Assembly: GCA_937995655.1 (NCBI GenBank)
Contig: CALKJI010000005.1
Coordinates: 310,001 to 374,000 of the forward strand
Source: an uncultured Pseudothermotoga sp.
Lineage (GTDB): Bacteria > Thermotogota > Thermotogae > Thermotogales > DSM-5069
Direction: 5' to 3'
DNA: 64,000 bases
Part shown: piece after piece, positions 9,206-13,933 of the stretch
Numbering within the stretch: the stretch's first letter is position 1
Layout of the letters: every line of letters begins with the position of its first letter
The notes under the pieces: generated by a model
Databases searched by the model: none
What the model was told of the DNA's origin: nothing
Seen by the model: the letters and a program-made list of their open reading frames with translations, nothing else
Translations under genes and position numbers: made by a program

Positions 9206-9235
9206 AAGTGGGCGTACCCATTAGTACGCCCACTT
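9206..9235 (-). terminator. Terminator hairpin between glyA and hisS
   Basis: A 12-bp perfect stem (9206-9217 with 9224-9235) encloses a 6-base loop. On the minus strand it is followed by TTTTATTT, so it is a good intrinsic terminator for hisS. On the plus strand there is no T tract, so it may only stabilise the glyA message. The stem reaches into the hisS stop codon. Confidence 0.75.
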
Positions 9236-10521
9236 CAGGTGTGCTCGAAATTTCTCGTTCTTACAGCTTTCAATACATCCAAAATGTAATCCACCGCATA
9301 TCCAAATTCAACCTCGGACTGAGTTTGATCCAACAAATTTTTAACCTGTACAGCCTTCTTCAAAAGCTCATCCTCACCTATTATGACTGCGATAGCAGCA
9401 TTCAACTTGTTTGCACGTTTGAGCTGAATTTTAATTGGTCGCAAGTTAACATCAATGATCACTGATAACCCACACTTTCTCAGAGAATCTGATATCTCTA
9501 AGGCTTTGACAACAGCCTGTTCATCGAGCGGGGCAACATAGATATCACAGTACGAATCCTGTGGTATCTGCAATTGTTCTGATTTCACAGCCAGAATGAG
9601 TCTCTCAATTCCTGCGGCAAAACCTAACGCAGGTAGATCAGGGCCACCCAGTTCCTTGCACAGACCATCATATCTTCCACCAGCAAGTATCGCACTCTGT
9701 GCGCCCAACAAATCGTGCTTCACCTCGAAAACTGTACGTGTATAATAGTCTAGACCTCTTACCAGGTTCCCATCTTCTTCAAAGGGCATATTCAAACTTC
9801 TCAAGATAGATTTTAATTTCTCGTAGTGCTCTCTACAATCATTGCACAAATATTCAACGGTCTTAGGTGCTCTTTGGGCTATTTCGATGTCCTTTTTGCA
9901 ATCCAACAATCTCAAAACGTTTAACTCAAAACGTCTTTTACAGTCTTCACATATTTCTTCATAATGCTGAGAATAATATTCTTTCAATGCATTTTTGTAC
10001 TCTGTTCTGCACTTCGGGCAACCTATGGAGTTTAAATATATTTTGTAAGAACTCAATCCAAGAGAACTCAGAAAGGATTTCGCAAGCTGTATAACCTCCA
10101 CATCTGCAAAGGGTTCTGCCGATCCTATCAGTTCTACGCCAAATTGATGAAACTGCCTGAGTCTACCAGCTTGAGGTCTCTCATATCTGAACATGGGTCC
10201 AATATAGTAAAATCTTTGTGGTAAACCATCATTGATCATCGAGTTTTCTATGAATGCCCTTATAGTTGGAGCTGTTCCTTCTGGTCTGAGCGTTAGACTC
10301 CTCCCACCTTTATCAAAAAAGGTATACATTTCTTTTTGAACTATATCGGTTTCTTCTCCTACACTACGCGTAAAGAGTTCGGTTGATTCGAATATGGGTG
10401 TCCTTATCTCTTGATAACCGAATAACCTGGAGACGTGAGCAGCCTTACGCTCAACAAAAAACCAGTAAGGAATCTGTAGCCCATAAATATCGTTGGTTCC
10501 CTTGATACGTTCGTATTTCAG
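9235..10521 (-). CDS. hisS: Histidyl-tRNA synthetase (apparent CTG start)
   Basis: This class II synthetase charges tRNA-His. Motif 2 (FRYERPQAGRLRQFHQFG), the HisA signature GLDYYTRTVFEV and the CPKC/CEDC insertion are all present. The first ATG in frame (10329) is too late: it would delete the conserved N-terminal strand and motif 1. The frame continues upstream through KYERIKGTNDIYGLQIP and FGYQEIRTPIFE to an in-frame TGA at 10527-10525. The only start-like codons between are ATT (10524) and CTG (10521). GGAGGG lies 7 bases before CTG, which gives a 428-residue protein of normal length. It ends the long minus-strand run, 20 bases after the radical SAM gene. Confidence 0.9.
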   Translation of the reverse strand: MKYERIKGTNDIYGLQIPYWFFVERKAAHVSRLFGYQEIRTPIFESTELFTRSVGEETDIVQKEMYTFFDKGGRSLTLRPEGTAPTIRAFIENSMINDGLPQRFYYIGPMFRYERPQAGRLRQFHQFGVELIGSAEPFADVEVIQLAKSFLSSLGLSSYKIYLNSIGCPKCRTEYKNALKEYYSQHYEEICEDCKRRFELNVLRLLDCKKDIEIAQRAPKTVEYLCNDCREHYEKLKSILRSLNMPFEEDGNLVRGLDYYTRTVFEVKHDLLGAQSAILAGGRYDGLCKELGGPDLPALGFAAGIERLILAVKSEQLQIPQDSYCDIYVAPLDEQAVVKALEISDSLRKCGLSVIIDVNLRPIKIQLKRANKLNAAIAVIIGEDELLKKAVQVKNLLDQTQSEVEFGYAVDYILDVLKAVRTRNFEHT

Positions 10522-10541
10522 AATTCAACCCTCCCTTGATC

Positions 10542-12188
10542 TCATGATACCACAGCACCGATTTGCCTGAGTACTCGTGAACACTCTTGATCGTTCTCTA
10601 AGGTTTCTATCACCTCTTCAAGAGACTTAAAAGGCCTTGCAAGCAAAATCTTTCTTGCGCGTTTCTGACCGATCGTTGGTATGTGAACAAGTTCATCAAA
10701 TGAAGCGGTGTTCACATTCAATGGATATCGAAGTGCTGTAATCGACCTTGGACCATGATCAGCTACTACGACATCCGAAGTGCTCAACATTTCTCCAACC
10801 ACACCGACCAAAACGGGATAACTTCCAAGTTGTCTTGCAAAAGTTATTTTTCCTTCTTTGTACTCTGGGTATACCTTTCGCAGAATGCATCCAACTGGAA
10901 AAACCTTTTGAATCATTGGTAAATCTATTTGTTCTCTGATCTTTTGTTTGTATGAATTGAAGATCTCTTTGTTCAATTTCAATTTCTTCATCTGTGAGAA
11001 TCTATAAAGAGGTGTGTCAGGTTCGATTATCACTTGTCTGACATTAATTCTTCTCAATAACAGGTCCCTGTCTAATATTGATTTTAACCACCTGAAATTC
11101 TCTTCATAGGTTTGCTTGGTTTCACCAATCAATCCATAGAGTAGGTTGATGCCCGGAAGCAGCTTGGGTACACCATCGATTCTTACCAGACCTACATGGT
11201 TGACTATCTCGATAGCTTTAAGGACCTGATCCGGAAAATTCATTATGTTATTCATCTTGATCACTCTTAGATCGAAGCTTTCGACACCAAAGGACAAAAC
11301 ATCACCCGGTGTATCCCATTTGACAATCGTTTCTAGAATCTGTGAGCATTCTCTTTCATAATTTGCTATAAAAGCAGGATTGGCATTATCGTGATGAAGC
11401 ACATCAATTTGAGGACATCTTTGCCAAATCGTTTCATACAGATCCTTGAAAACCTCAGGACACGGTTTCCCATTGATGTCAGAATAGTAGGCCAAAACAT
11501 TTGCAGACCTTCCAAACCTGAAAGCTCTGCAGCCATGACTGTAAAGTTCACTGACCTCGTCTATCACATCCCTCACGGGCCGAGAGGTAAACCTTGGGTA
11601 AAAGACAGGCTCCACACAGAAACTGCAGTGAGTTCTCCTTTCACAGCCACGTGAGAGTTCTATCTCACACATAACGTTTGGATATCTTGGATGCTGCCTG
11701 ATTATCGAGGCTCCAAATAAAGATGCATTTCTAACTATTTCCCAATCGTTGGAATTTTTCTGTGATTCAAAAAAATAGTTATACAGATCGACGGCAATAT
11801 CAGGACCGAGCAGATAATCTACATCAAGCTCAGATTTAACTGCTTTTGTTCCACCTTTGCGTGCTTGAAAGGATGAAAAAGGACCGGCAACCAATCTAAT
11901 ACTTTTCTTGCAAGCCTGTAACACCTTTTCGAGTTCGCTGTGGGACATCGGCTCACCGCCCACATACTTCCCTGGAACAGCTACTCCTCCTATGATCAAG
12001 ACAAGATCAAAAAAGGGTAAATCATCCCACGATTTATTGCTTCGAATCTGGTCTATCGTGCGATAAGTCACGTCATAATTTTTCATTGCAAGAATTCCTG
12101 CAGCATAGCGAACATAGTGGCTAACGTAGGGGGGTATTCCAAGAACGGCCGGTTCGTCTACATACCCGTCGAGGATCAGTGCTTTCAT
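10542..12188 (-). CDS. Radical SAM protein with CX5CX2C motif and C-terminal helix-hairpin-helix
   Basis: The protein has 548 residues. Residues 1-140 look like a Rossmann-type B12-binding-like domain without an obvious DxHxxG cobalamin motif. The radical SAM core follows, but its cluster cysteines are C182, C188 and C191 (CX5CX2C) instead of the usual CX3CX2C. Conserved core segments FGVESFD and PGINLLYGLIGET follow. Residues about 480-530 form a helix-hairpin-helix domain (LNVNTASFDELVHIPTIGQKR), usually a nucleic-acid binder. This points to a nucleic-acid substrate or partner, as inference. It lies between the sigma-factor module and hisS. The function is not recognised. Confidence 0.75.
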   Translation of the reverse strand: MKALILDGYVDEPAVLGIPPYVSHYVRYAAGILAMKNYDVTYRTIDQIRSNKSWDDLPFFDLVLIIGGVAVPGKYVGGEPMSHSELEKVLQACKKSIRLVAGPFSSFQARKGGTKAVKSELDVDYLLGPDIAVDLYNYFFESQKNSNDWEIVRNASLFGASIIRQHPRYPNVMCEIELSRGCERRTHCSFCVEPVFYPRFTSRPVRDVIDEVSELYSHGCRAFRFGRSANVLAYYSDINGKPCPEVFKDLYETIWQRCPQIDVLHHDNANPAFIANYERECSQILETIVKWDTPGDVLSFGVESFDLRVIKMNNIMNFPDQVLKAIEIVNHVGLVRIDGVPKLLPGINLLYGLIGETKQTYEENFRWLKSILDRDLLLRRINVRQVIIEPDTPLYRFSQMKKLKLNKEIFNSYKQKIREQIDLPMIQKVFPVGCILRKVYPEYKEGKITFARQLGSYPVLVGVVGEMLSTSDVVVADHGPRSITALRYPLNVNTASFDELVHIPTIGQKRARKILLARPFKSLEEVIETLENDQECSRVLRQIGAVVS

Positions 12189-12191
12189 GAT

Positions 12192-13013
12192 CTACTTTTC
12201 CAGTAACTGCTTGATTTGTTTCAAAACGTTATCGTCTTGGGTGACGACATATATGTGATAACCCTGACCAGTACATTGAATCATTTTTTCATTTTGTTCC
12301 ATGTTCACATTGACTTCTTTTGAAGCGTAGACCACCTTGAGGATAGAGCCTGATTTGTGGTTTGCCATGATCAAGATGACTTGTTCTTCGCCGATCTTCA
12401 AACGTGATACTGTGTACCAAGAAACAGTTTGCAAAATTTCCTTAATTTCACTTGGAAAACTAATAGTTGCTTCACTTGGACGAATGTTGTATTTGTTAGC
12501 AATTTCATCAAACTTCTGCGTCAAAGGTTTTACTTCTTCGTAGACTAGCTCCGTTGTCACACCTTGGAAGATGCGAGTGATCTTTTCGGGATACCCTTTG
12601 TCGTTTATTATAGCTGTGAAAAAACCCGAAGATGAATCCACAACGACCTTATATTTTCCATCGATTCTTTCTGTTTTTGAGATACCAACTTGCTTTAACT
12701 GTCTTATAAACAGATCCTCCAGATCAAGGATTTCGAGGGGCGATATACGGAAGTTATTTGGTTCACCCATAATGAATGAACCGGAGTGCTTTGCCCAAAT
12801 CAAAATCAACGGTGATAAAACCTGGACAATCTTATCATCAGGCCATCTGTAGACTAACTCGATCCTGCTTTTGTTATTAGCACCACGTTCTGTAACAACT
12901 CGTCTTCCGAAATATGAGTTAGTCAGAAAAAGATCTATAAAGGACTGACAAAACACAGCTACAGTATATACAGCGATACAAGTTAATATCAGAGTTCTTT
13001 TCATTCCAGCCAT
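12192..13013 (-). CDS. Exported protein, possibly RseB/LolA-like sigma-factor regulator
   Basis: This 273-residue protein starts with a signal peptide or signal anchor (about MKRTLILTCIAVYTVAVFC) and continues as a mixed alpha/beta domain (FTAIINDKGYPEKITRI, ELVYEEVKPL). It follows an ECF sigma factor and a one-helix anti-sigma-like protein, which is where RseB/MucB proteins with a LolA-like fold are encoded in sigma-E operons. That assignment rests on context and length; no diagnostic motif was seen. AGGAG lies only 2 bases before the ATG at 13013, so the second ATG (13004) may be the start. It is 3 bases from the radical SAM gene. Confidence 0.6.
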   Translation of the reverse strand: MAGMKRTLILTCIAVYTVAVFCQSFIDLFLTNSYFGRRVVTERGANNKSRIELVYRWPDDKIVQVLSPLILIWAKHSGSFIMGEPNNFRISPLEILDLEDLFIRQLKQVGISKTERIDGKYKVVVDSSSGFFTAIINDKGYPEKITRIFQGVTTELVYEEVKPLTQKFDEIANKYNIRPSEATISFPSEIKEILQTVSWYTVSRLKIGEEQVILIMANHKSGSILKVVYASKEVNVNMEQNEKMIQCTGQGYHIYVVTQDDNVLKQIKQLLEK

Positions 13014-13028: not shown

Positions 13029-13382
13029 TCAGAAACCATCCCCAACCAGCTTAACCAAGCTGAGGTAATCAAAGACTTCACTCACCGAGGCTTGTTGGCT
13101 TCTTGCTGTGGCAGGGATCTTGGTTGGTAAAAGATTGAGTGTTATGAAAAATAATGCGATCACAACGGATGCGGCTACTAGTATTTCCGAGAACAACTCC
13201 CTTCCTTTGTGGATCTTGGACATCACACGTTTTTCAAGAACAGGACTGGGTTTGTAATGGTAGCGTACTTTGATCACCTGCATCATGCTGTTGTAGATTT
13301 TCACATCTTGTTTTGTCTTTTCATCCAGTTCTTCTTTCGTCAGCTCTCCATCGAGGAATCTCTGGAAATCCTCGTCGTTCAT
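13029..13382 (-). CDS. Probable membrane anti-sigma factor
   Basis: This 117-residue protein has an acidic N-terminal cytoplasmic part (DEDFQRFLDGELTKEELDE), one transmembrane helix at about residues 64-86 and a short external tail. It overlaps the upstream ECF sigma gene by ATGA, so translation is probably coupled, as is usual for sigma/anti-sigma pairs. It lacks the zinc-binding HXXXCXXC motif, so it would be a non-zinc anti-sigma factor in the RseA style. Function is inferred from context and topology. Confidence 0.7.
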   Translation of the reverse strand: MNDEDFQRFLDGELTKEELDEKTKQDVKIYNSMMQVIKVRYHYKPSPVLEKRVMSKIHKGRELFSEILVAASVVIALFFITLNLLPTKIPATARSQQASVSEVFDYLSLVKLVGDGF

Positions 13383-13933
13383 TCGTCCGCCTCCTCAAGC
13401 AACTTCTTGAGTCTCTTTCTTGCATAGTGAAGGCTACTCTTAACACTCCCGACCGGTTTGTCGACTATTTGGCTTATCTCTTCATAACTCAATCCATCTA
13501 CGTCTCTCAGTTTTATCAACAATCTATCGTCTGCTGATAATCTCTCTATGGCATCCATAATCTTTTCGTAGGCTATTTCGCCGGTTGCTTGTAAACTCGT
13601 ATCAGATTCTGAAACTGGATGAGGCATCGAACCTTCCTCGTCCTCTGTGAAATCTGTTAGTACTTCATTTCTTCTCCTATATTTTGATAGATAGTCTTTG
13701 CAGACATTTATTGCTATTCTATAAACCCAAGTAGATAACTTAGAGTCACCTTTGAATTTCCTTACACCTTTGAAAACCCTCAGCATGACTTCCTGAACTA
13801 CATCGTCAACATCATCTGCTCCAAGATAAGCTTTAGCAACACTTCCTATTTTACCAGCGAATTCTTCATAGAGCCATCTGTACGCCCAATCTTCACCGCG
13901 TCTAAGTCCTCTGAGGAGTTCTTCATCTTGCAT
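13379..13933 (-). CDS. rpoE: ECF RNA polymerase sigma factor (RpoE-like)
   Basis: This 184-residue group 4 sigma factor contains region 2 (VDDVVQEVMLRVFKG and STWVYRIAINVCKDYLSKYRRR) and region 4 (LSYEEISQIVDKPVGSVKSS), separated by an acidic linker (about 108-125). It would direct RNA polymerase to stress or envelope promoters. ATG 13933 follows AGGAGG. The next two genes look like a membrane anti-sigma factor and an exported RseB-like protein, giving a signalling cassette. No promoter of its own is obvious in the 40 bp upstream. Confidence 0.92.
   Translation of the reverse strand: MQDEELLRGLRRGEDWAYRWLYEEFAGKIGSVAKAYLGADDVDDVVQEVMLRVFKGVRKFKGDSKLSTWVYRIAINVCKDYLSKYRRRNEVLTDFTEDEEGSMPHPVSESDTSLQATGEIAYEKIMDAIERLSADDRLLIKLRDVDGLSYEEISQIVDKPVGSVKSSLHYARKRLKKLLEEADE

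Follow-up and report, generated by a model that had tools for sequence, protein, structure and literature searches.

A radical SAM/helix-hairpin-helix protein family of methylthiotransferase-like build, proposed to modify RNA and tentatively connected with nucleoside N-330 of 16S rRNA

The window, i.e. the whole stretch of 64,000 nucleotides that was analyzed, encodes a radical SAM protein whose family appears, from sequence comparisons and a predicted model, to be a variant of the methylthiotransferase (MTTase)-type radical SAM design (Table 1). With moderate confidence, this family is best explained as an RNA-modifying radical SAM enzyme. In such an enzyme one [4Fe-4S] cluster with the ligands C182, C188 and C191 would cleave SAM, the TRAM-type barrel and the helix-hairpin-helix (HHH) would hold a structured RNA, and a base in this RNA would be modified. 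Cluster formation and use of SAM are presumed by analogy with the radical SAM superfamily, and RNA is the probable substrate as judged from the predicted fold, the TRAM-type barrel and the HHH. This reading is favored by the fold matches to MTTases, by the HHH, by the presence of the gene in most genomes of the window's phylum (Thermotogota; 88 of 103 at E<=1e-20) and by a TRAM-domain protein encoded near the gene at 31 of 78 haloarchaeal loci.

Table 1. Positions of the radical SAM gene, its predicted domains and its upstream neighbours in the window
Feature	Position	Strand	Remarks
Radical SAM / TRAM-type barrel / HHH protein	10542..12188	-	ORF of 548 aa, ATG start
N-terminal alpha/beta domain, residues 1-165	11694..12188	-	Family motif DGYxDEPAxxGxPPY; no conserved Cys or DxHxxG
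Radical SAM core, residues 170-390	11019..11681	-	Pfam match (176-368) and predicted model
Cluster loop CERRTHCSFC (CX5CX2C), residues 182-191	11616..11645	-	First gap 3-7 across the family
TRAM-type beta barrel, residues 430-488	10725..10901	-	Five strands in the model; VIA-align; co-linear in hhalign
Helix-hairpin-helix, residues 490-526	10611..10721	-	Pfam HHH_3 above cut-off
Upstream neighbour without family match	12192..13013	-	Separated by 3 nt from the radical SAM start; no Pfam match at E<=0.01
Small protein at the place of an anti-sigma factor	13029..13382	-	By position alone; no Pfam family above cut-off
ECF-type sigma factor	13379..13933	-	Sigma70_r2, r4_2 and Sigma70_ECF above cut-off

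Two domains of the window protein were recognized by Pfam, namely Radical_SAM (PF04055) at residues 176-368 with 35.3 bits (cut-off 29.5) and HHH_3 at residues 490-526 with 29.2 bits (cut-off 27). The DNA/RNA-binding-like C-terminal module of a preliminary description of this sequence is therefore real and is an HHH, which is usually a nucleic-acid module. The TRAM model of Pfam gave no match in the protein, and for this reason the label TRAM-type relies on fold and profile alignment. In NCBIfam 18 families matched the protein at E<=1, all of them far below their own cut-offs. Homologues were compared in an alignment of 143 sequences, comprising 40 from the window's phylum including the window protein, 80 from named loci, 20 others from the haloarchaeal phylum and three from Streptomyces; the broken gene at locus L073 was left out. 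As 78 columns of this alignment are at least 97% conserved, chance is excluded. Fewer than 25 residues follow position 489 in seven of the 143 relatives, which thus lack the HHH-bearing tail, and this is a point against an RNA enzyme. Rfam and tRNA scans of the 64-kb window yielded no matches.

The cysteines C182, C188 and C191 are the only invariant ones among the 143 aligned homologues. Their CX5CX2C spacing, as given in the preliminary description, was confirmed in the ORF translation, and the alignment contained no second cluster motif. The question raised there, whether the spacing is conserved family-wide, can be answered in the negative: the second gap is two residues in every homologue, but the first comprises three (80 sequences), four (2), five (35), six (15) or seven (11). 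Within the 40 sequences of the window's phylum it is five in 25 and six in 15, in all 80 haloarchaeal sequences it is three, in the 20 other archaea it is seven (11), five (7) or four (2), and in all three Streptomyces proteins it is five. At least seven changes of gap length are needed on a quick tree of 73 sequences that was calculated with the loop columns excluded. The length of the cluster loop is thus an evolving feature of the family, and CX5CX2C is ruled out as a family signature. One archaeal member (L174) carries a fourth cysteine within its seven-residue loop (CSRAACGGCSFC).

The same CX5CX2C spacing is found in HmdB/HcgA according to the accessible passages of PMC10100467 and PMC4389238, where HcgA is likened to HydE, HydG and biotin synthase. 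The preliminary description had taken the spacing as a special, HmdB-like sign, which did not hold up: unlike in HmdB/HcgA the spacing is not fixed in the radical SAM/HHH family, and no HmdB model was among the 18 NCBIfam matches at E<=1. Because the first gap varies within the family, CX5CX2C provides no link to HmdB. A first gap of three to seven residues among homologues of one radical SAM family implies that spacing alone guides function poorly.

The structure was predicted with the window protein and 37 haloarchaeal sequences as input (mean pLDDT 72.9, pTM 0.75; pLDDT below 50 in parts of the cluster loop); these pLDDT values are a caveat to the RNA reading. In the model an alpha/beta domain at the N-terminus is followed by the radical SAM core and a long helix, and then by a barrel of five strands and a helical tail. 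The nine best solved structures in a Foldseek search were chains of MiaB, MtaB, MgmA and RimO (E 3e-16 to 1.4e-14). With VIA-align the best match was RimO (4jc0; Z 24.6, 405 aligned residues, 4.4 A), in which residues 2..491 of the model correspond to residues 2..433 of RimO, while MiaB entries reached Z 22.2-23.2 and MtaB Z 22.8. The alignments with RimO, MiaB and MtaB start at model residue 1 or 2 and extend to 489-491, and therefore the TRAM region is covered. MiaB, RimO and MtaB thus share domain order and fold with the window protein over residues 1-491, at an identity of 14-15% in the structural alignments. This is supported by hhalign, in which the family matched an alignment built from MiaB, RimO and MtaB of the window's genome over 411 columns (probability 98.2). 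In contrast to these proteins, the window family shows a variable first cysteine gap and an additional C-terminal HHH, which lies beyond residue 491 and is extra relative to the MTTase fold.

The best fold match and the confident profile match would also agree with an MTTase proper, yet this identity is scarcely credible. MTTases hold a second [4Fe-4S] cluster by three N-terminal cysteines. In the 143 sequences no column before position 174 contains a cysteine in at least a quarter of the proteins, and the N-terminal domain is thus without a conserved cysteine; residues 1-165 are free of cysteine in 95 of the 143, and 11 sequences contain three or four at unconserved places. The match of the window protein to TIGR00089 in NCBIfam reached 37 bits compared to a cut-off of 251. 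Since conserved auxiliary-cluster cysteines are absent, the protein is MTTase-like in build and yet no MTTase, and the missing ligands rule out assignment as an MTTase proper.

The N-terminal region was also analyzed for its potential to bind cobalamin, as the preliminary description had called it B12-like. This likeness stands at the level of the fold, but a B12-binding signature does not accompany it. VIA-align detects a fold likeness to B12-binding enzymes, and the same region also aligns with the N-terminal domain of MTTases in both VIA-align and hhalign. No B12-binding family is among the six Pfam matches at E<=1, and none of the 143 sequences has a DxHxxG motif in its first 175 residues; some B12-binding members of class B lack DxHxxG as well. 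A cobalamin-dependent radical SAM C-methylase (class B) acting on RNA or protein is consistent with the N-terminal alpha/beta fold, with the fold matches to MgmA, TsrM, OxsB and CysS, and with matches to B12-binding radical SAM families of NCBIfam below their cut-offs, the best of which was obtained with a haloarchaeal member (TIGR04013, E 3.4e-16). The genome encodes a separate TIGR04013 member above the cut-off, and hhalign aligned the family with this protein over 307 columns (probability 98.3), the barrel not included. TIGR04013 thus aligns as confidently as the MTTases, which is a point against an RNA enzyme. Nevertheless, a class B methylase is judged improbable in view of the lack of both Pfam match and motif and of NCBIfam scores that are all far under the cut-offs. 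Moreover, AprD4, which has a B12-like domain without cobalamin, ranks above OxsB, CysS and TsrM in VIA-align (Z 19.3), although Foldseek instead places TsrM above AprD4.

MgmA (TIGR04014) and TIGR04013 share the N-terminal alpha/beta domain and the radical SAM core with the window protein. A profile search of PDB sequences gave MgmA (9ccb) as the best match (E 2.8e-11), and in VIA-align (Z 21.6) its rmsd of 3.1 A over 343 residues is the lowest among the best 50 matches listed. However, this alignment comprises model residues 2-428 and stops ahead of the barrel and the HHH of the window protein, and the NCBIfam score for TIGR04014 is 34.3 bits compared to a cut-off of 360. Both RimO and MgmA modify proteins, which argues against an RNA enzyme. 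If the barrel bound a protein target, the family would be a protein-modifying enzyme, in keeping with RimO, which acts on ribosomal protein S12, as the best VIA-align match, and with MgmA, which acts on methyl-coenzyme M reductase. We consider this unlikely, as the added HHH is usually a nucleic-acid module and no evident protein substrate was found among the recurrent neighbours. The architecture alone is no basis for a decision between RNA and protein targets. Accordingly, the nucleic-acid modification suggested in the preliminary description is in line with the MiaB/RimO-like build with its TRAM-type barrel and HHH, but it has to be weighed against the fact that RimO-like designs also modify proteins.

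The family is presumably identical to COG1031 ("radical SAM enzyme with C-terminal helix-hairpin-helix"), which was matched by its description and is catalogued without a known function. In the open-licence literature, no mention of COG1031 and no paper on a family with the radical SAM, TRAM and helix-hairpin-helix design was found; the accessible part of PMC9431491 treats CX5CX2C and does not mention COG1031. Among window-phylum genomes with at least 90% completeness and at most 5% contamination, 72 of 82 harbor the gene. The 15 genomes of the phylum that lack it comprise six fragmented drafts (160-640 contigs, 60-98% complete) and nine that are 99% complete (G075-G077 and G087-G092). These nine represent the genera g29, g30 and g34, and the sister genera in their family (f10) possess the gene. 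The absence from nine near-complete genomes of three genera indicates that the gene is dispensable, which weighs against the RNA reading, and these genomes represent a natural loss set. In three further genomes the gene is in two pieces, located on different contigs (G068) or separated by different frames or a stop (G067 and G081).

Outside Thermotogota, the haloarchaeal phylum, which includes Natronorubrum bangense, was sampled with 295 genomes, and the gene was detected in 236 of them (E<=1e-20). A scan of named genomes gave at least 546 relatives, of which 80 loci were kept; all are haloarchaeal by title except one "uncultured archaeon" (L147). A plasmid search recovered a relative from N. 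bangense (39.5% identity, 95% covered), four from Streptomyces without an HHH (29.7-32.0% identity, 88% covered) and a fifth, partial one. In N. bangense two identical stretches of 17,725 bases with the gene (L078 and L079) occur on the chromosome and on plasmid unnamed1, which points either to a duplication that happened very recently or to an artefact of assembly. In the quick tree the window's phylum forms one side of a branch (SH-aLRT 84), and the Streptomyces proteins, which lack the HHH, cluster on a long branch of their own. The breadth within the window's phylum together with this one-sided branch is the pattern expected of a housekeeping modifier. A viral relation was ruled out, as scans of viral contigs gave no relative and the window protein had no match in PHROGs; two partial matches in phage records (E 1e-4 and 4e-4) cover 14-22% of the query.

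For an RNA enzyme with this distribution, one specific target can be proposed tentatively. According to the accessible part of PMC2584109, N-330 is a modified cytidine of unsolved structure and mass 330.117 in helix 44 of Haloferax volcanii 16S rRNA, where position 1352 equals E. coli 1404; it also occurs at the same site in Thermotoga maritima (citing Guymon 2007), and N-330 had no assigned gene in this 2008 survey of the genes for RNA modification in Haloferax. No later assignment was found in the open-licence literature, which excludes preprints and most subscription journals, and the enzyme is not named in the accessible parts of PMC8305020, PMC7694415 and PMC7897474. By mass arithmetic, N-330 corresponds to cytidine plus C3H5NO2 (C12H18N4O7, 330.1175), 0.55 mDa off the reported value. 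Of the four formulas that deviate by no more than 4 mDa, we judge only this one to make chemical sense, and it fits 5-carboxymethylaminomethyl- or 5-(2-amino-2-carboxyethyl)cytidine. On the basis of distribution, domain design and chemistry we hypothesize that the family might be the missing enzyme, or provide the key radical step, for N-330 at C1404 of 16S rRNA, a possibility to which we assign well below even chances. The enzyme would place a carbon substituent at C5 via radical chemistry in the decoding centre, where N-330 lies.

In the 30S subunit of Pyrococcus abyssi, hm5C was tentatively modelled at the equivalent position, the sole modelled modification that mass spectrometry did not confirm; the accessible part of the same report (PMC7005279) notes an unidentified modification at this position for some archaea and tabulates m5C in Thermus thermophilus and an unmodified C in E. 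coli. A partly ordered larger group at C5 would give such an unconfirmed hm5C. The gene is very probably present in both N-330 organisms, a correlation that many other families common to both would share. Genome G021 carries it, and the purine nucleoside phosphorylase of this genome matches chain 1vmk, which we take to be the T. maritima protein, at 265 of 265 residues; G021 can therefore be assigned to T. maritima with high probability. Of the 80 loci listed out of at least 546, six come from Haloferax records, none of them H. volcanii. A two-step path via an m5C methylase was not supported, as TIGR00446 does not track the gene across the 103 window-phylum genomes: it matches in 46 of them at E<=1e-30, with one above the cut-off, and in the window's own family none of 11 genomes has a match while 10 of 11 have the gene.

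No single pathway follows from the gene neighbourhoods. The preliminary description had seen no clear pathway in the position of the gene, which was fair; yet the sigma module is a conserved neighbour. In the window's order (Thermotogales) all 15 loci compared contain, upstream, a sigma factor gene and a gene for a protein of the type encoded at 12192..13013, the latter adjoining the radical SAM gene, and the small anti-sigma-like ORF was recognized in 10 of the 15. The three upstream ORFs of the window (Table 1) belong to these neighbour clusters. None of the ORFs of the module was detected at the 25 other loci compared, some of which end at contig ends. In haloarchaea the TRAM-domain neighbour, identified from one record, is encoded on either strand no more than 600 bp downstream at those 31 of the 78 loci with sufficient room, and its absence near the other 47 is a further point against an RNA enzyme.

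Other neighbourhoods suggest small molecules in two lineages, again a point against an RNA enzyme; the substrate would be a free nucleoside or nucleotide in Streptomyces and, in archaea, a pterin or a cofactor related to it. In a set of 20 diverse loci from archaea, the start of the radical SAM gene overlaps by 4 or 11 bases with an MptE-like gene at nine, at a tenth locus this gene is located 1.7 kb upstream, and a DHH/TrkA gene occurs further upstream at 10 of the 20; both families were named from one member each. On Streptomyces plasmids (L075-L077) the HHH-less distant relative heads an operon of nucleoside-metabolism genes. Its products are Amdase/racemase-like, weakly HhH-GPD-like, PfkB, nucleoside 2-deoxyribosyltransferase and thymidylate-kinase-like proteins, as determined by a family scan of L076, and the operon resembles a cassette for nucleoside modification or defence. 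Small-molecule chemistry is nonetheless unlikely for the family: the MptE-like overlap is limited to one archaeal clade, the one haloarchaeal record examined has no gene annotated as MptE at a distance of up to 10 kb, the Streptomyces proteins are set apart on their long branch, and the TRAM-type barrel and the HHH would be hard to account for. In PADLOC the thymidylate-kinase-like protein matches VakA (E 4e-7) and PDC-M51B (E 1e-6), neither the window protein nor the Streptomyces radical SAM relative has a match, and a haloarchaeal member shows a weak match to PDC-M51A (E 0.0017, 16 residues).

The archaeal loci L165, L168-L170 and L172-L177 display the order DHH/TrkA - MptE-like - radical SAM and all encode a seven-residue first gap; at L173 no MptE-like ORF was seen. 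A Thg1-like gene is located 1.5-2.2 kb downstream on the same strand at eight of the 10 loci of the DHH/TrkA type. In the window, hisS (9235-10524, minus strand) follows the stop codon of the radical SAM gene at a distance of about 20 nt, and none of the codons ATG, GTG and TTG is present at its natural start. Its frame, preceded by an in-frame TGA, reads ATT CTG AAA TAC, with the CTG 7 nt behind GGAGGG, and judging by this sequence hisS may start with CTG or ATT.
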